Source: a virus
Reading direction: 5' to 3' (one strand)
IMG/VR virus record: IMGVR_UViG_3300027749_000448
Location: 1-25,635 of that record
DNA: 25,635 bases
The position numbers were made by a program, and so were the translations under genes. Below, piece by piece: positions 3,223-24,482 of this stretch. How positions within the stretch are numbered: the first letter of the stretch is position 1; every line of letters begins with the position of its first letter. The notes beneath the pieces are model-generated. The model did not search any database. It saw only the letters and a program-made list of their open reading frames with translations, and was not told the origin of the DNA.

Positions 3223-4944
3223 ATGAATTTAACCGAGTTAAGTTTTAGTAAAGTAAAAACACAAATAGAATCATTTCTACAACAGGAGTATTCCAAGTCG
3301 GGAATACTTTATTCTAATGCTAGTCCATATGGACAGATACTATCTGTCGTTGAAAACTTATATCAATTATCTTTTCTTTATCTAAAGAATAGTATTAAGC
3401 AATATGACTTGTCTAACTACAACTCACTTAACTCCAGAATAATCAGAAACGCTGCCATATTCGCTGGACATATTCCGGGTAGGAATATAAGCGCAACCGG
3501 AACGTTAAAGTTTACGCTAAAAACATCAGCTGATCCTTCAACTGATATACCCGGCTCAAGACTAACATTAATAAATCATCAAACTCTAAAAAATAAAACC
3601 AATGGTTTATTCTATTCAATAAATTTAGGAACAGATAAACAATCTTATAAGATATCAACCAATTCAGTATTCTATGTGAATATTATTCAAGGTCAGTGGG
3701 AGATAACAACATTTACAGGCACGGGACAAGAAAATCAGACATATCAAATATCATTAAGAGGTAATCAAAAAGATGTAGAACAATTTAACTATTTAGTTCT
3801 TGTAAATGGTCAATATTGGACTGTTAAAAAGGGTATATATGATATGTTACCTGACGAACAAGCTTGTGTTATTAGAACAGGATTTGACGGTGGCATTGAT
3901 GTTATATTTGGTAACTCTGGTTTTGGAGCTATCCCACCAATTGGATCGGTTATTAAAGTAAACTATTTGGTAAGCGATGGTTCTGTTGGATCTATATTTA
4001 GAAGGACATTAAATGACTGGACTTTTGTAGACCCAGCAACTGATGGATTTGGTAATACCATAGATTTATCTAAATACTTTGATGTATCCATCTATACTGA
4101 TATTAACTTTGGTGCTGATAAGGAAACAACCACTTTTACCAAGAATGTTTTACCAATAGTAAGTACCAATTTTGTACTAGGACTTCCTCAACAATATGCT
4201 TATGCGATTAAAAGACTAGGAGTATTCTCTTATGTAAATGCTTATGAATCATATGGTACTGTTTATATAGTTGCTGCACCAAATGTATTGCTATTCAAGA
4301 ATGCTAACTCTGATTACTTCACAATAGATATTAGAGCTTTTGAACTTGATTCATATGAAATATCTAAAATAGACTTGTATTTAAGAACTGGTGGTAATAT
4401 TTTATTATCACAGAGATATCAAATAAGCTCACCTACCTTATCTTATTATGTAATGAATGTATTTGTTATAACTTACTCCGATGCTCAAATGGACTCGGTT
4501 AATGCTCAAATACAAGAAGTCGTGTCTAACTACTTTTTGAATTTTACTAGATTGGATAGAGTACCTAAAAGTGACCTAGTACAGTTAATATCACAGATAA
4601 ATGAGATATACTCAGTTGATGTATCTTTTATCAGTAAGAAGAATGAAGACTACCACATTAGGAATATAACAGCTGATACAAATAGATATAACCAATATAC
4701 TTCAAAAGCTGCTTTGAAACTGGTAAGACCTAACCCAACATATAACAAGAGTGAATCATTGGGATTAGATCCAATACTAGGAGATATTATTTTTAAACCA
4801 AGTGAGATACCTGTTATTAGAGGTGGTTGGTCAGATAGAAATGGTATATACTATTCAGATCATATAGATGATTCTGGACTAAAGTCACTTAATATAATAA
4901 ATAAGGGAACTATTGACGCTAATAATAGACCACAAATACAATAA
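3223..4944 (+). CDS. Baseplate wedge protein, T4 gp6 / baseplate-J-like
   Basis: This is a structural protein of the tail baseplate wedge. The diagnostic part is residues about 217-258, where IRTGFDGGIDVIFGNSGFG, then IPPIGSVIKVNYLVSDG, gives the baseplate-J/gp6 signature (FGdg.fG..p..G..I.v.Yl...G). The N-terminal 80 aa is helical (LSFSKVKTQIESFLQ) as in gp6 proteins, and the middle is beta rich. The C-terminal third (about 415-500) has a helix-rich dimer-like region (SDAQMDSVNAQIQEVVSNYF). At 573 aa it is close to the T4 protein in size. It is the first gene of a plus-strand block and sits behind a TTTTAATATATA box, as fits a late gene. Confidence 0.8.
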   Translation: MNLTELSFSKVKTQIESFLQQEYSKSGILYSNASPYGQILSVVENLYQLSFLYLKNSIKQYDLSNYNSLNSRIIRNAAIFAGHIPGRNISATGTLKFTLKTSADPSTDIPGSRLTLINHQTLKNKTNGLFYSINLGTDKQSYKISTNSVFYVNIIQGQWEITTFTGTGQENQTYQISLRGNQKDVEQFNYLVLVNGQYWTVKKGIYDMLPDEQACVIRTGFDGGIDVIFGNSGFGAIPPIGSVIKVNYLVSDGSVGSIFRRTLNDWTFVDPATDGFGNTIDLSKYFDVSIYTDINFGADKETTTFTKNVLPIVSTNFVLGLPQQYAYAIKRLGVFSYVNAYESYGTVYIVAAPNVLLFKNANSDYFTIDIRAFELDSYEISKIDLYLRTGGNILLSQRYQISSPTLSYYVMNVFVITYSDAQMDSVNAQIQEVVSNYFLNFTRLDRVPKSDLVQLISQINEIYSVDVSFISKKNEDYHIRNITADTNRYNQYTSKAALKLVRPNPTYNKSESLGLDPILGDIIFKPSEIPVIRGGWSDRNGIYYSDHIDDSGLKSLNIINKGTIDANNRPQIQ

Positions 4945-7339: not shown

Positions 7340-8257
7340 ATGGGAATATCTAATAAATATAATAAAGACGAATTTGTAAGGAGAGCTAATTTAGTTCATA
7401 ATAATAAATACGACTATTCTTTATCTGATTATAAAAATAGCCGAGATAAAATTGATATTTTATGTCCTAAACACGGTATATTTAGACAAATGCCATATAA
7501 TCATTTACAAGGAAAGGGATGTAACTACTGTTCTATGAATCAAAAAAATACTATTAATGATTTTATAGATAAGTCGAATAAAAAACATAATAGTAAGTAT
7601 AACTACCCCGATAAAAATTACATAAATAGCGTAACCCAAATATCCATAGAATGTCCTAATCATGGAGTTTTTAGACAAACTCCCGGAAATCATTTAAGAG
7701 GAGTGGGATGCCCAAAATGCAGTGGGAACAGAAAATTAACAACCGATGAATTTATAGATAAAGCTAATAAAAAACATAACTTCTTATATAAGTACCCCAA
7801 CTTAAACTATAAAAACTATGATAGTGAAATAGATATAGAGTGTCCCAAACATGGAATATTTAAACAGATAGTCAGAAATCACTTGACTGGAAGAGGATGT
7901 CAAAAATGTAGAAATTCTAAAGGTGAGTTAAAAATATCAGAAATTTTAAGCAAAAATAATATAAAATACAAAAAAGAATATACATTCAATGATTTAAGAC
8001 ACAAAGATTTATTAAAATTTGACTTTGCTATTTTAGATGATAAAGAACTAATAAAATATCTAATAGAATTTAACGGACAACAACATTATGACTTTAAGAA
8101 AAAGTTCCATAAGGATTATGATAATTTTATTATAAATAAACATAGAGACAACCTAAAGATAGACTACTGTAGAAGGAATGGATATAAGTTATATATAATA
8201 AGATATGATGATAATATCGAAGATATTATGAATAATATATTGAATGACAATATGTAA
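7340..8257 (+). CDS. Zinc-repeat homing-type endonuclease, second copy (305 aa)
   Basis: This has the same architecture as the gene at 1301-2362, on the other strand, with three repeats instead of four. The zinc ligands are C42/H45/C61/C64, C105/H108/C124/C127 and C168/H171/C187/C190, with HNNKYDYS and CPKHGIF-Q consensus words. The C-terminal nuclease region (about 195-305) has KFDFAIL (D228) and LIEFNGQQHY (E243, H249), the D and E-F-N-G-x-x-H of Vsr-like nucleases. The two copies differ clearly in the nuclease part, so they are not a recent duplication. The gene is very AT rich (13 G+C in the 60 bases 7981-8040). A free-standing homing role is inferred from the family. Confidence 0.75.
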   Translation: MGISNKYNKDEFVRRANLVHNNKYDYSLSDYKNSRDKIDILCPKHGIFRQMPYNHLQGKGCNYCSMNQKNTINDFIDKSNKKHNSKYNYPDKNYINSVTQISIECPNHGVFRQTPGNHLRGVGCPKCSGNRKLTTDEFIDKANKKHNFLYKYPNLNYKNYDSEIDIECPKHGIFKQIVRNHLTGRGCQKCRNSKGELKISEILSKNNIKYKKEYTFNDLRHKDLLKFDFAILDDKELIKYLIEFNGQQHYDFKKKFHKDYDNFIINKHRDNLKIDYCRRNGYKLYIIRYDDNIEDIMNNILNDNM

Positions 8258-16620: not shown

Positions 16621-17991
16621 CTACCTTCTAGACCTTGATCTTAACCATGTTAAGAAACTATCGGAATTTAAATCTGAACTTGCGTATTCTCTTATCATAT
16701 CAGACACACTATTCCTTCCAAACGACCAACCACCTTGAAGGTCTGCTAGTCTCTCTTCATTTATATTTGTATCACGAGACCTTTGTTCTCTTTCGGATAG
16801 AAGTCTTTTTGTCCTCTCAGCTTGCTCAGCAAGAATCCTTTCGTGTTCCTCAATCTGCTTATTAATCAGATCCATATCATTAAGAGATTCGTCCTTATAT
16901 ATCCAGTCTCTTAAAAGAGGATGTCTATAAGCGTCGTCTTCAAGAATATAAACATCAAGTATATTAGAATACTTTGCTCGACCTTCGAATACATGAAACC
17001 CACGACTAGGTATTTCGACCATTTCATGTGTATAGTGAAACAGATTAGTAGTTCCATCTTCTGTTAGATGTCGGTGGTTTTCATAGTAACCTTCCGAACC
17101 AGAAATAGTGATTATATCCTCAGAACCATTTTTATAGTTAAAAATAGTATTAGTATCACGACAAAGAAACTTAAACGTATCTAAGTAAGGATACCTATCA
17201 TAGTCAGATATATTCAACTTAGCAGACAACCTCATTATTTCAAGGTCTTGGTTATTAGATACAAACTTCAAAGTGTTATTCCACTTTTGTTCCTTCTTAT
17301 AGATGAACCCATTTGCATCAGCCCACTTTTTAAAATGGAAGACATAGTCTTCATCAGCAATCGTATATATACGATCCATCAGTTGGAATACCTTACCATT
17401 TGGGTCAGTAGTATTCATCCAAAGCAAAGCTCTACCTAATATATGGTCTGTGTTGTCAACCATAATAAGCATTTTTATTTGTTCTGGGTTATCAACATAA
17501 AGTTGAAACCAAGGTTGACATGACTTATGTTTCATACAAGAATTACCTAATGTAGAATCTTGTGTAACATATCTCTCATAATGATAATACTTACGAATGT
17601 CTTCACCTTCGACTATTTTGAAAGTAAAAGATGGTGATGACTGGACATTACGATAAAGAGTAGAGAACAACTCTACTTCCTTATCGGAGACATCCTTGAA
17701 TATCTTCTTGATAAAAGAACCGGGTTTAGCAAATATACGTTTACTTGAATGCCATACATCCTCACCAGATTCAATCATTTGAGATGACCGTTCTGGGGTT
17801 AGATATGATATCTTAGTCTTATCCGAAGAGGACACGGATAAGTAGTTGACGTGATTATCAATAAGTACATCCAATGATAAACGAGACTTCAAAAGCATTC
17901 GAGCTATCTCTGAAGCTGGTTCCATTTGTAACAGAACATCATTAAGTTCCGGTGAAATATGTATATCAGAAGTTTTCCTTGTATATGGCAT
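16621..17991 (-). CDS. Unknown conserved-looking phage protein, 456 aa, S-C-M motif
   Basis: I do not know a function for this protein. A well-ordered core lies at about 135-235: DSTLGNSCMKHKSCQPWF (S151-C152-M153), the strand LYVDNPEQIKMLIM, GRALLWMNTT, LMDRIYTIAD and a helix with KKWADANGF. It reads like a folded domain of mixed alpha/beta type. The C-terminus has a charged coiled coil (INKQIEEHERILAEQAERT, about 382-405) and then a serine/arginine-rich end (FLTWLRSRSRR). There is no TM segment or nucleotide motif. Its own host-type promoter lies just upstream, so it is probably expressed early. Confidence 0.75.
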   Translation of the reverse strand: MPYTRKTSDIHISPELNDVLLQMEPASEIARMLLKSRLSLDVLIDNHVNYLSVSSSDKTKISYLTPERSSQMIESGEDVWHSSKRIFAKPGSFIKKIFKDVSDKEVELFSTLYRNVQSSPSFTFKIVEGEDIRKYYHYERYVTQDSTLGNSCMKHKSCQPWFQLYVDNPEQIKMLIMVDNTDHILGRALLWMNTTDPNGKVFQLMDRIYTIADEDYVFHFKKWADANGFIYKKEQKWNNTLKFVSNNQDLEIMRLSAKLNISDYDRYPYLDTFKFLCRDTNTIFNYKNGSEDIITISGSEGYYENHRHLTEDGTTNLFHYTHEMVEIPSRGFHVFEGRAKYSNILDVYILEDDAYRHPLLRDWIYKDESLNDMDLINKQIEEHERILAEQAERTKRLLSEREQRSRDTNINEERLADLQGGWSFGRNSVSDMIREYASSDLNSDSFLTWLRSRSRR

Positions 17992-19984: not shown

Positions 19985-20014
19985 AAACCCCAGTCATTTG
20001 ACCGGGGTTTATCT
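19985..20014. terminator. Bidirectional terminator between the CTS-like gene and gltX
   Basis: The stem aaacccc/ggggttt (19985-19991 with 20004-20010) is extended by gtc/gac across one A-C mismatch, with a short loop. On the minus strand the exit is TTTTTAT. It lies just past both convergent stops (19984 and 20016). Confidence 0.8.
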
Positions 20015-20015
20015 T

Positions 20016-21506
20016 TTAAAGAGTATTATGTATTCTCTTAACTACTTCGTCCTTACCTAAGATACCCATTGTCGTCATCAAATCCGGTCCAGGAACACCA
20101 CCGGTAATCGATATACGCAAACCTGGCATTATCTTACCCATTTTCACACCCATTGATTGACATATATCAGAGATAATCTGTTTGATAGTGTCAGCGACCC
20201 AATCAAATGTATCAATCTTACTAATAAAGTCACTCATTACCTTCTTATAATCGTCAGTAAGAGATTTACTCGCCTGGAATTTCTCGCCATCAACATCACT
20301 AACAATGACCGGTTTGAAGAATATATCAGCTACCGGTTGTAAATCTCCTGTAAAAATAGACCTATTCTTACAGATATCAACAATCTTTGATATGTTATCC
20401 GGAGAATACTTGTAAGTATCACCCATATCAATATACTTCAACAAATAATCGTCAGTCCTTTTGTGTTTAATATAATAACTATTAAAGTGTTTCGCTTTAT
20501 CCATATCGAAACGAGCACCAGACTTATGAACCCTATCTAGTGAAAACTGACTAATCAAATCGTCCATAGAGAAAATTTCATTAGTATCAGTTGGTGACCA
20601 ACCAATCAAAGAAAGAGTGTTGATAAATACATCAGCATCAAATCCACAATCCTTCCAACCATTCACAAAGTTACCATCTGCGTCGGTATAACCAAGTGGA
20701 GCAATCGGAATACCGTATTTAGCGGCTGTTCTCTTTGACAACTTACCCTTACCATCCGGGTTCATAATCAGCGGTAAGTGAGCAAAGGTAGGAATATCCC
20801 AACCAAATGCTTTGTAAAGCAGTACGTGAAATGGTGTTGAAGCAACCCACTCCTGACCACGAAGGACATGAGTAACCCCCATATCATGATCGTCAGAAGT
20901 ATTAGCCAAGTGATAACTTGCTATACCATCGGACTTCAAAAGAACCTTATCATCCAACTGGTTAGAGTTGATAGTAATATCCCCTAAAATCGCATCACTG
21001 AAAGTAATGTCAATATTAGCAGGTACAGCGAAACGAACAACATACTTATCCCCATTATCCATACGAGCAGCAACATCATCTTTACTTAGAGAAAGTGAGT
21101 TCAACATACTCATACGAGTAGATGCATCGTATTTAAAGTTAGGGATAGATTTATGAGCTTTATCCAAGTCATCCTTACTATCAAATGCGTAGTAAGCGTA
21201 TCCATTATCAATCAAATAAGCAACCTTAGCTGAATAATCTCTTTGAGACTGGATAAATGAACCAACCGAAGGGTCTGGGTTCCAATAAGAAGCATCAGGT
21301 ACGATACCTAACCAATCACACATCTTCCTAAAGTAATCGAGGAAGTCTGGTGTATATCGATCCCTGTCAGTATCTTCAAGACGAACAAGAAACTTACCAC
21401 CATTCTGTTTAGCTAGAAAGTAGTTATAAAGTAAAGTCCTAACGTTACCAATGTGACAAAAATTGGAAGTAGGTGAGGGTGCTATTCTTGTTACTATCTG
21501 TTTCAT
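20016..21506 (-). CDS. gltX: Glutamyl-tRNA synthetase
   Basis: It charges tRNA-Glu with glutamate using ATP (class I). The HIGH signature is SPTSNFCHIGNVRT (11-24) and the KMSKS signature is GKLSKR (254-259). Typical GluRS words lie between: FLVRLEDTDRDR (39-50), YAYYAFDSKDDL (103-114), and LANTSDDHDMGVTHVLRGQE (200-219; cellular forms usually have R-G-E-E-W). The wording around YYAFD and STRMSMLNSLSLS is of the Bacteroidota bacterial type. At 496 aa the enzyme is full length, with the C-terminal anticodon-binding region present, so I see no decay. It stands apart from other genes with its own host-type promoter and terminator. No tRNA gene is in the window. A synthetase gene in a phage is unusual. 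Confidence 0.95.
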   Translation of the reverse strand: MKQIVTRIAPSPTSNFCHIGNVRTLLYNYFLAKQNGGKFLVRLEDTDRDRYTPDFLDYFRKMCDWLGIVPDASYWNPDPSVGSFIQSQRDYSAKVAYLIDNGYAYYAFDSKDDLDKAHKSIPNFKYDASTRMSMLNSLSLSKDDVAARMDNGDKYVVRFAVPANIDITFSDAILGDITINSNQLDDKVLLKSDGIASYHLANTSDDHDMGVTHVLRGQEWVASTPFHVLLYKAFGWDIPTFAHLPLIMNPDGKGKLSKRTAAKYGIPIAPLGYTDADGNFVNGWKDCGFDADVFINTLSLIGWSPTDTNEIFSMDDLISQFSLDRVHKSGARFDMDKAKHFNSYYIKHKRTDDYLLKYIDMGDTYKYSPDNISKIVDICKNRSIFTGDLQPVADIFFKPVIVSDVDGEKFQASKSLTDDYKKVMSDFISKIDTFDWVADTIKQIISDICQSMGVKMGKIMPGLRISITGGVPGPDLMTTMGILGKDEVVKRIHNTL

Positions 21507-21524: not shown

Positions 21525-21556
21525 CAAAGATACGAAAAAATACTGACAATACCAAG
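21525..21556 (-). promoter_or_regulatory. Host-type promoter of gltX
   Basis: The minus strand has TATCTTTG (21532-21525) preceded by TCG, with CTTG (21556-21553) at spacer 20. The ATG at 21506 is 18 bases after the -7 box. This predicts transcription of gltX by the host sigma factor from the time of infection. Confidence 0.65.
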
Positions 21557-22138
21557 TTAATCTAAGAGTATATCCAGCTTGGTTTCCCTGATGTATGGTG
21601 TTATATCAGATGTATAATCCTTATTACTTCTACCATACCTATTCTTTGATACTACAAACCTACCGTCACAGATACTACAATAGTAAGTTGAAGAGAATAT
21701 AAAACTACTACCATTTTTAATATTAAATGTGGGTTTGGATCCACCCGATTTATACAACTGAGCTTTTATTATAATAGAGTTTTTTCTCTTATTCATTAGA
21801 ATTCTAAATTCATTAAATGATTTACTACTAAAATTGGAATAAACTCGCGATAAAGTATCTTCGTCCCTTTCTGCAATAATTGGATCCACTATATCATCTA
21901 CACCAAGAACCATAATTGAGTTTGAAGAACTTGTCTCAAAATTTATTTTACGATTAGTAGAGTTAGGATACTTAATACGTTTACTAACGTCATTACAGAT
22001 GGGTTTAGTAACCTTTTCAAGTACATCATCAATGATACGATTAGCAATATATTCATCCTTAGGTAAATAATACCCAAAGACGAAAATACCACCATCCTTA
22101 TCATTTATCATAGTTGATAACTCATTTATTAATTCCAT
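21557..22138 (-). CDS. Hypothetical protein, 193 aa
   Basis: A soluble alpha/beta protein. The second half has strands and loops (NSIIIKAQLYKSGGSKPTFN, then GSSFIFSSTYYCSICDGRFV) ending VVSKNRYGRSNKD. This faintly recalls the C-terminal part of phage RecA/DnaB-type ATPases (a Q-x-x-K/R-x-G loop and a K-N-R-x-G end), but no Walker A motif is present, so I do not name it. The C-x-x-C in CSIC is a lone cysteine pair. It overlaps the start of the upstream orf end by 17 bases. Confidence 0.6.
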   Translation of the reverse strand: MELINELSTMINDKDGGIFVFGYYLPKDEYIANRIIDDVLEKVTKPICNDVSKRIKYPNSTNRKINFETSSSNSIMVLGVDDIVDPIIAERDEDTLSRVYSNFSSKSFNEFRILMNKRKNSIIIKAQLYKSGGSKPTFNIKNGSSFIFSSTYYCSICDGRFVVSKNRYGRSNKDYTSDITPYIRETKLDILLD

Positions 22139-22364
22139 ATAGAATTCTTTCTATTTTATTAGTTCTAATACTTCTATTCATCATAGATGATATTCTTTTA
22201 GAAGTATAAATATCAAGTTGATTAGGTGTCATTCCTAATCTTATGTAACACACAATCATCCTAAACACCCACAAGAATACGTTTCTCCAACCTTTCCAGT
22301 AGGTTATACCCTTGCGAAATCCTCTTCTCCATTGTACATTCCACAAGTATCTTAAAGTTCTCAT
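22122..22364 (-). CDS. Small basic, tryptophan-rich protein, 80 aa
   Basis: It is rich in tryptophan and arginine (LWNVQWRRGFRKGITYWKGW), followed by a hydrophobic patch (VFLWVFRMIVCYI) and a basic C-terminus. It may be peripherally membrane bound. The ATG is only two bases behind TATATTTG, so the mRNA would be leaderless. Its 3' end overlaps the 193-aa gene by 17 bases, and the pair forms a short operon. No family is recognised; a real gene is supported by the promoter and the overlap pattern. Confidence 0.6.
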   Translation of the reverse strand: MRTLRYLWNVQWRRGFRKGITYWKGWRNVFLWVFRMIVCYIRLGMTPNQLDIYTSKRISSMMNRSIRTNKIERILYGINK

Positions 22365-22375: not shown

Positions 22376-22411
22376 AAAAAAAAGTCCAATAGTTTGGAAA
22401 CTATTGGACTT
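22376..22411 (-). terminator. Intrinsic terminator of the SPFH transcript
   Basis: A perfect 14-bp stem (aagtccaatagttt 22382-22395 with 22398-22411) is followed on the minus strand by a long T run (complement of the A run 22376-22383). It lies 127 bases past the SPFH stop. Confidence 0.85.
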
Positions 22412-22538: not shown

Positions 22539-24422
22539 TTACTTTTTCTTTTCTTCTGTTGTTACAACAGTAGATGGTGTTACAGGGGTTTCGTCAGTTT
22601 TAACGATGTTCTTCTTCATCATATCCACTAACTGCATTCCCATGATACCTTCAAGGGCACTTCCACCATTTGCTCCTCCACCGATAAGGATATCAGGGAT
22701 AACCTTTATCTTATTCAGACCGATAGACTCAGTCACCTTGAACTTAGTGAAGTTATCTTCACCCATTGCTTCAACTTGAAGTTTATAAGCTTCAGCGGTT
22801 GACTTACCAATCGCTTCAATCTTAGAAGCTTCTGCTTTACCAGTTACGGTAATCTTTTCAGCTTCAGCGTTAGCCCTCATTTTAGTTGACTCCGCTTCAG
22901 CTTCAGCGTTCAGCTTAACAGCTTTTGCTTTACCCTCAGCGTTCTTAACTTCAGCGGCTGCGTTTCGTTCAGCGATATTTACTGACTGTTCAGACTTAAC
23001 AACCTCTTTCTGCATATCAGCGATAGCGTTAGCCTTTTCGAACTCCTGACGTTTAGCCTGAGCCATACGTTGAGTATCATAGGTTACCTGTTGTTCTTCT
23101 GCTATCTTACGGTCAGTAAGAGTCTTCATAAGACTTTCAGGTGGAGTAATATCTCCGATAAGAGTATCGACCGCATGTACGTTATACTCATCCAACACCT
23201 TAGAGATGTGTGACTTAGCTGATTCCTGACGCTCTTTACGAGTACTTAGGAAAGCAATAACGTCACTATCCTGTGCTGAGTTACGGAAATAGTTACCGAT
23301 TGTTGGTTCAAGTACCTGACTAACAAGGTTAGACATATTACCGAAACGAGCGATTACCTTAGGTGCTTCCGTAGAAGGAACGTGGATAATCTGTGAAACG
23401 TCAAGGTTGAATGGGAAACCGTCTTTAGAACGTACAGTGATTGTACTAAGACCAGCGTCCAACTTGTGAGATTCAGTACGAGCGGATGCCCAGTTTAGAA
23501 CAAGGTTGGTAGTCGGAACCTGTTCAATACGCATTGTCATGGTATTGATTGGGTATTTGCCCGGACCGAGTGGTTCAATCCACACACCTTTCTGACCTTT
23601 CTTCACGATGTTACCGTGTTTGAAGTCCGAACCGGTTAAGTCCGCACCGTCCTCACCAACATAAGATACAACAACACCTACATAACCAATCGGAATCTCG
23701 GTCATTTTGACTTCCTCGACTGTAACAGCCCAAGGGTTGATGTTATAAGTACCTGCTAGGATTATTTCTTGCTGTAGACCACGTTGTCCACCGTTCTCCA
23801 AAAACTTATTAAAGTCTTGAAACTTATTGTGTCCAGTAATAACGTCTGCTGCAATCTGACCTTCGGAAAGAGGAGCACCGTCTAATGTAGTAACAATACC
23901 TACAGCGTTATCAGTAATAGTGTGTTGGTCACACATAGCAACGTCAAATAGATGACGATTGATACGATAAGAACCCGCTACAAGGACAGTAGCCTGACGA
24001 CCCTTATTACCACCGTTTGTTAAGAACTTCTCAGCGTCTTGGAAGTTATCTGAATCAACAGAACGACCCAAAATTTGACCGTTAGATGGAACAGAACCGT
24101 CTTTAGACGACACGAGACCGATTTTACCTTGAGGAATAACGGTAAAATCTACCAGTTTGATTTCATACTGCCAAGGCCAGTACCCGAAGTAAAGACCCGG
24201 TGCTAAAGTTTTAGCTTGGAAACCCGCCTCACCCTTTGTCGCTATGATACGACCATCCGGAAGAGACTTTTCTTTGCCAAAGAGAACGAATTTCTTGGTT
24301 ACTAGACCAATCTGGCTTTCAGGAACAATCACGACACCAAAAAGTCGGAATACCCATTTGTACATAACTACGGCTAAAATGACTGGTATAGCCCACCAAT
24401 ACGCTGACAATAAATTTATCAT
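22539..24422 (-). CDS. SPFH/band-7 (flotillin-like) membrane scaffold protein, 627 aa
   Basis: An N-terminal hydrophobic segment (about 9-32, WAIPVILAVVMYKWVFRLFG) anchors it in the inner membrane. Residues about 33-240 hold repeated units with similar words: IGLVTKK, IGLVSSKDG and VGIVTTLDG, each followed by a G-Q-I/G-R-I turn, then FQDAEKFLTNGG or FQDFNKFLENGG, and AGSYRIN or AGTYNIN. The SPFH core follows (about 245-440), then a long charged coiled coil rich in A, E and K (about 440-560, AAAEVKNAEGKAKAVKLNAE type) and a glycine-rich patch (IGGGANGGSALEG). Family knowledge: SPFH proteins form ring or cage-like membrane microdomain scaffolds. Its G+C is higher than its neighbours (27 of 60 in 23401-23460), which suggests acquisition from a cellular genome or strong codon selection. 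The role in infection is unknown. Confidence 0.9.
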   Translation of the reverse strand: MINLLSAYWWAIPVILAVVMYKWVFRLFGVVIVPESQIGLVTKKFVLFGKEKSLPDGRIIATKGEAGFQAKTLAPGLYFGYWPWQYEIKLVDFTVIPQGKIGLVSSKDGSVPSNGQILGRSVDSDNFQDAEKFLTNGGNKGRQATVLVAGSYRINRHLFDVAMCDQHTITDNAVGIVTTLDGAPLSEGQIAADVITGHNKFQDFNKFLENGGQRGLQQEIILAGTYNINPWAVTVEEVKMTEIPIGYVGVVVSYVGEDGADLTGSDFKHGNIVKKGQKGVWIEPLGPGKYPINTMTMRIEQVPTTNLVLNWASARTESHKLDAGLSTITVRSKDGFPFNLDVSQIIHVPSTEAPKVIARFGNMSNLVSQVLEPTIGNYFRNSAQDSDVIAFLSTRKERQESAKSHISKVLDEYNVHAVDTLIGDITPPESLMKTLTDRKIAEEQQVTYDTQRMAQAKRQEFEKANAIADMQKEVVKSEQSVNIAERNAAAEVKNAEGKAKAVKLNAEAEAESTKMRANAEAEKITVTGKAEASKIEAIGKSTAEAYKLQVEAMGEDNFTKFKVTESIGLNKIKVIPDILIGGGANGGSALEGIMGMQLVDMMKKNIVKTDETPVTPSTVVTTEEKKK

Positions 24423-24482
24423 ATTTTGTTTTTTGTTTCCCTACTCTATTGTTTATAGGATTTTCAGGTTACTCCTTTAGTC

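Follow-up and report, generated by a model that had tools for sequence, protein, structure and literature searches.

The genomes of huge phages encode components of the translation apparatus, which raises the question of why these phages keep whole aminoacyl-tRNA synthetases. The closest described systems are Mahaphages. Al-Shayeb et al. (2020; PMC7162821) described genomes of 634, 636, 642 and 735 kb with predicted replication in Bacteroidetes, presented a phage glutamyl-tRNA synthetase (GluRS) subtree close to Bacteroidetes as an example of phage synthetases (their Extended Data Fig. 7a) and suggested that such enzymes charge the phage's own tRNAs. Here we describe gltX, a GluRS gene on a viral contig (positions 1 to 25,635 of IMG/VR record IMGVR_UViG_3300027749_000448; this whole stretch of 25,635 nucleotides is referred to below as the window), the product of which is 67% identical to the GluRSs of LR745206.1 (634 kb) and LR756502.1 (642 kb). 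On sequence grounds, we consider it probable that a Mahaphage-type phage encodes its own competent, discriminating GluRS, in a single-gene unit with a host-type promoter, that would charge phage tRNA-Glu and most likely that of the host as well. The original prediction treated a phage synthetase as a rarity known mainly from very large phages; the megaphage setting holds, whereas the surprise does not extend to the Mahaphage group, which was published together with its GluRS (PMC7162821), and the window gene is best regarded, modestly, as a good but ordinary further example whose one unusual detail is a small active-site change common to its entire phage lineage.

The phage origin of the window can be read from a structural gene (Table 1). 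The closest relatives of its baseplate wedge protein are Mahaphage proteins (65% identity to LR756502 and 62% to LR745206), followed by those of the 735- and 636-kb phages and of Lak phages; neither a terminase gene nor a major capsid gene was recognised within the 25.6 kb. By these relationships, the window represents part of the genome of a Mahaphage-type megaphage with a predicted Bacteroidota host. A bacterial chromosome, the identity that the original prediction had allowed for as its undoing, is rejected in view of the baseplate wedge gene and of megaphages being the closest relatives.

Table 1 Features of the gltX locus and of the window
Feature	Position	Strand	Basis
gltX, glutamyl-tRNA synthetase (GluRS), 496 aa, ATG to TAA	20016..21506	minus	ORF call, Pfam, NCBIfam, AlphaFold2 model
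Class I catalytic domain including acceptor-binding insert, residues 3-337	20496..21500	minus	PF00749, 4.8e-70
Anticodon-binding domain, residues 366-495	20022..20411	minus	PF19269, 7.3e-26
HIGH signature as HIGN, residues 18-21; loop before it one residue longer	21444..21455	minus	Alignment
R-G-Q-E, residues 216-219	20850..20861	minus	Alignment, clade conservation
KMSKS signature as KLSKR, residues 255-259	20730..20744	minus	Alignment, clade conservation
Arg382, aligned with T. thermophilus Arg358	20361..20363	minus	Alignment, conservation
Bacteroidota-type promoter-like site TTG-N20-TATCTTTG, 18 nt 5' of the gltX ATG	21525..21555	minus	Pattern match
Intrinsic terminator-like hairpin, 11-bp stem (-17.9 kcal/mol), then T-rich tail	19985..20010	minus	Fold
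Gene-order block downstream of gltX, common to L129-L131	8283..17991		Glycosyltransferase, GIY-YIG, PRPP synthetase, exonuclease, ORF 16621-17991
Baseplate wedge protein (PHROG 219)	3223..4944	plus	Profile match; Mahaphage relatives

The gene lies on the minus strand, which the original prediction had left unspecified, and has the domain composition of bacterial-type GltX (class Ib), with PF00749 and PF19269 in a full-length protein. Its product scores 390 bits against the NCBIfam equivalog TIGR00464 (gltX_bact; cut-off 290) and falls far under the cut-off of the NCBIfam GlnRS model. Identity as GluQRS (YadB) was rejected, given a score of 158 bits against a cut-off of 276.7 and the presence of the anticodon domain. 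An AlphaFold2 model (mean pLDDT 90.7) has its best solved-structure match in 6brl, the GluRS of Elizabethkingia (40% identity; Z 47.7 across 486 residues), and both class I signatures are present, as HIGN and KLSKR. The full-length phage enzyme with intact class I motifs that had been predicted is thus borne out and, by these measures, the window gene encodes an intact bacterial-type GluRS.

Signals that could govern expression flank the gene. The upstream site TTG-N20-TATCTTTG matches the Bacteroidota -33/-7 promoter pattern, of which the window holds 7 sites against 2.7 +/- 1.5 expected. In most members of the 14-member phage clade described below, a TAnnTTTG box precedes gltX by at most 90 nt. 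With this promoter-like site before it and a terminator-like hairpin after it, gltX looks like a single-gene transcription unit that would be read by host RNA polymerase, in line with the host promoter and terminator originally proposed. Going away from gltX, the window has ORF 16621-17991 followed by the exonuclease, PRPP synthetase, GIY-YIG and glycosyltransferase genes, an order kept at loci L129-L131. In relatives with tRNA arrays, gltX sits between the arrays; the position of gltX therefore varies across the phage clade while the gene itself is kept.

Other features of the window are recorded here as observations. A match to Rfam RF02914 (DUF805b RNA) at 24438-24477 on the minus strand (37.9 bits against a cut-off of 35.6) lies just 5' of the SPFH/Band 7 gene at 22539-24422, and a 13-bp inverted repeat at 22382-22411, terminator-like on both strands, separates that gene from ORF 22122-22364. 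Two regions (1301-2437 and 7340-8257) each encode a protein in which a treble-clef zinc finger motif (DUF4379) is repeated. Both are probably homing-type nucleases, and relatives of these proteins are found near gltX in several phage loci.

Scanning viral sequences with a GluRS profile returned 30 loci; a viral scan with a single GluRS sequence gave no matches. The tree comprised 114 proteins, 34 of them from phages and 80 from genome contigs that nearly all belong to Bacteroidota, and was built by a quick method with midpoint rooting for drawing only. In it, the window GluRS belongs to a phage-only clade of 14 (SH-aLRT 100), nested in a phage-only set of 21 (99) that has long stem branches and adjoins Bacteroidota GluRSs. 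The remaining phage GluRSs are placed separately, near or among Bacteroidota, so it is likely that phages have acquired the gene more than once. Because its clade and the surrounding set are exclusively of phages and the stem branches are long, the window gltX is, on this tree, no recent capture and has long resided in phages. Acquisition from a Bacteroidota-type host, as originally suggested, thus retains its support from affinity but not in the form of a recent event. Estimates of dN/dS (0.08-0.22) indicate purifying selection, although they are rough, with dS near saturation for pairs that include the window gene. Decay of the gene, the other outcome that the original prediction had set against itself, is rejected on account of the intact ORF, the low dN/dS among relatives and the phage-only clade. 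That we are looking at a decaying bacterial acquisition, or at a bacterial contig, is extremely improbable; the Bacteroidota affinity is the sole point in favour, and it is opposed by those same three observations together with the baseplate gene and the megaphage relatives.

A synthetase that charges phage tRNAs requires tRNA genes to serve. None were found in the 25.6-kb window, and each of the six large GluRS-bearing relatives carries two to four tRNA-Glu genes (the complete megaphages LR745206, 4; LR756502, 3; LR756504, 2; LR756501, 3; and the large contigs G011, 4; G012, 3). By comparison, three related megaphages that lack any PF00749 protein, and hence both GluRS and GlnRS, each show a single tRNA-Glu in those tRNA clusters that were read, and the total number of tRNAs is 43-62 in four complete GluRS megaphages versus 28-34 in megaphages without the enzyme. 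The higher number of tRNA-Glu genes in GluRS phages backs a charging role as support rather than proof, being non-specific in that it tracks total tRNAs in phages that are themselves related. From these counts, the charging of phage-encoded tRNAs that was envisaged at the outset appears to be the likely role. Unlike the tRNA-rich relatives, the clade-member contigs L124, L125 and L133 (127-191 kb) gave one weak tRNA match each. Both LR756500 and the Lak phages have tRNA-Glu and no GluRS, so the host GluRS can suffice. In LR745206 and LR756502, GlnRS lies beside tRNA-Gln arrays (the GlnRS family was confirmed for LR745206), and for this reason a discriminating GluRS fits these phages.

Several unusual tRNAs and a further synthetase-like gene were noted in phage loci. 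In L002, L004, L038, L148 and L151, ARAGORN assigns some tRNAs a four-base or uncertain anticodon (gtag, tcta, ttac, acat); these could be genuine frameshifting tRNAs or artefacts of the prediction. Class II tRNAs, with a long variable arm and a UUC (Glu) anticodon, adjoin tRNA-Tyr in phage arrays and are near-identical in three phages (L003:593-678, L151:529-615 and L179:15627-15713). LR745206.1, which has a full GluRS and a GlnRS, also encodes a second GluRS-like protein of 285 aa (L021:1375-2232; LR745206.1 near 23461-24189), a length that leaves no room for a normal anticodon domain; it is possibly GluQRS-like or a truncated GluRS. Finally, tRNA-Glu with an A11-U24 pair occurs in L023, L003, L151, L179 and L036, and the tRNA clusters read in LR756500 and Lak-A1 contain it too.

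Such tRNAs raise the possibility that the phage GluRS is specialised for phage tRNA-Glu lacking host identity elements, with A11-U24 in place of U11-A24 or with class II UUC bodies. In E. coli, GluRS uses U11-A24 as a major determinant (PMC9976931), and A11-U24 is present in 7 of 17 phage tRNA-Glu but in 2 of the 158 other phage tRNAs, a contrast inflated by related copies, and in none of 54 Bacteroidota tRNA-Glu (26 genomes, searched with a pattern permitting both pairs). However, host-like tRNA-Glu is also present in several GluRS phages, and a link between A11-U24 and possession of a GluRS is not supported, as two of the three GluRS-less megaphages checked, LR756500 and Lak-A1, show the pair. 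The unusual pair is therefore a property of the tRNAs in these phages for which the synthetase offers no explanation, and we judge such specialisation to be improbable. Still less credible is that Glu-tRNA made by the phage enzyme feeds a non-translational reaction, such as peptide dehydration or C5 tetrapyrrole synthesis. Uses of this kind exist (PMC9993889, PMC4284751), but those window ORFs that were compared with Pfam and PHROGs gave no match to a dehydratase or glutamyl-tRNA reductase.

General charging of tRNA-Glu during infection is the reading that we favour. The window GluRS would be made from its host-type promoter as a single-gene unit, would attach glutamate to the additional tRNA-Glu encoded by phages of this type and, most probably, to host tRNA-Glu as well, and could in this way keep up the supply of Glu-tRNA when expression of the host gltX drops or host translation is attacked. 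The evidence is that the enzyme is intact, with its catalytic and anticodon-reading residues kept, that selection on it is purifying, that it has long resided in phages and that relatives carry two to four tRNA-Glu genes; from this we infer enzymatic activity, expression, tRNA-Glu genes in the window phage itself and a benefit to that phage.

The active site is both conserved and altered. The glutamate-binding residues of Thermus thermophilus GluRS are R5, A7, S9, E41, Y187, N191 and R205, and the aligned residues are all present in the window enzyme (R7, A9, S11, E44, Y198, N202 and R216). These seven, together with E219, W220, K255, K258, R259 and R382, are identical in all 14 clade members. 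Arg358 of the T. thermophilus enzyme reads C36 and marks a discriminating GluRS; R382 occupies this position in 14 of 14. Set against this conservation are three differences. In every clade member the stretch from SPT (SNT in L129-L131) to the HIGH motif is longer by one residue, and the motif itself ends in GN rather than the GG found elsewhere. Residue 218 is Q in nine members and N in five, versus E in all 100 outgroup sequences (20 from other phages and 80 bacterial, the latter collected with a pattern allowing Q, E or N at this site and so with no bias to E). The R-G-Q-E near the active site that drew attention originally is thus real, but it is not a mutation of the window gene alone. 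Borrelia burgdorferi GluRS (4gri) naturally has Q at the equivalent position (R-A-Q-E-W), so Q at residue 218 is compatible with a working enzyme, and a private or inactivating mutation is rejected given this counterpart and the clade-wide Q or N. A literature search on the role of the equivalent T. thermophilus residue, Glu207, found nothing.

These changes bear on a possible conflict with the host. In E. coli, excess GltX suppresses the toxin HipA, which phosphorylates Ser239 of the KLSKR motif (PMC6581861); the equivalent residue in the window is Ser257. The phage GluRS might therefore act mainly as a counter-measure, replacing or swamping host GluRS that has been inactivated by a toxin such as a HipA-type kinase acting on this serine, and so allowing translation to go on. 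Besides the E. coli precedent, the altered HIGH loop and RG[Q/N]E in all 14 members would suit such a role, as would the KLAKR of L122:2157-3611 and L151:10001-11455, which leaves no serine to phosphorylate. Yet the serine is kept in the window GluRS and in 12 of the 14, the two KLAKR proteins are close relatives and count as one event, and no defence-system family was matched among the ten window proteins tried; we regard this function as unlikely, though not negligible. A related and similarly doubtful idea is that the clade has remodelled its active site (the HIGH insertion, HIGN, E218Q/N beside Glu219 of the catalytic site and, within one sublineage, the disappearance of the HipA-target serine) to resist inhibitors or kinases of host GluRS or to accept divergent phage tRNA-Glu. 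If true, the phage GluRS would be a synthetase evolved for conflict and not a plain copy. What deserves an experiment in this finding is the set of active-site changes found across the clade: 14 phage GluRSs differ in three defined active-site features from every outgroup sequence examined, so that the question of why huge phages keep whole synthetases could be tested using a single enzyme and two tRNA types.

Compared with known enzymes, the window GluRS is closest to those of Mahaphages LR745206.1 and LR756502.1 (PMC7162821), which belong to the same phage group and, at the 67% identity noted above, share HIGN, RG[Q/N]E and the Bacteroidota affinity. The setting differs: in both Mahaphages gltX lies between large tRNA arrays, whereas in the window its neighbours include genes for PRPP synthetase and an exonuclease and the 25.6 kb hold no tRNA, an arrangement matched only by L129-L131 among the loci compared. 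Cellular Bacteroidota GluRSs (Elizabethkingia 6brl and 6b1z; 40% identity) have in common with it the full domain set, the discriminating-type Arg and, unlike T. thermophilus GluRS, a long stretch after KLSKR; the phage clade is set apart from them by the extra residue before HIG, by HIGN for HIGG, by RG[Q/N]E for RGEE and by its separate, phage-only position. The B. burgdorferi enzyme shares the natural Q, but has no HIGH-loop insertion and no special relatedness. T. thermophilus GluRS (1j09, 1g59; 33% identity) has E207 where the phage enzyme has Q218; the two share the same fold (Z 37.5), with their substrate-binding residues aligned.
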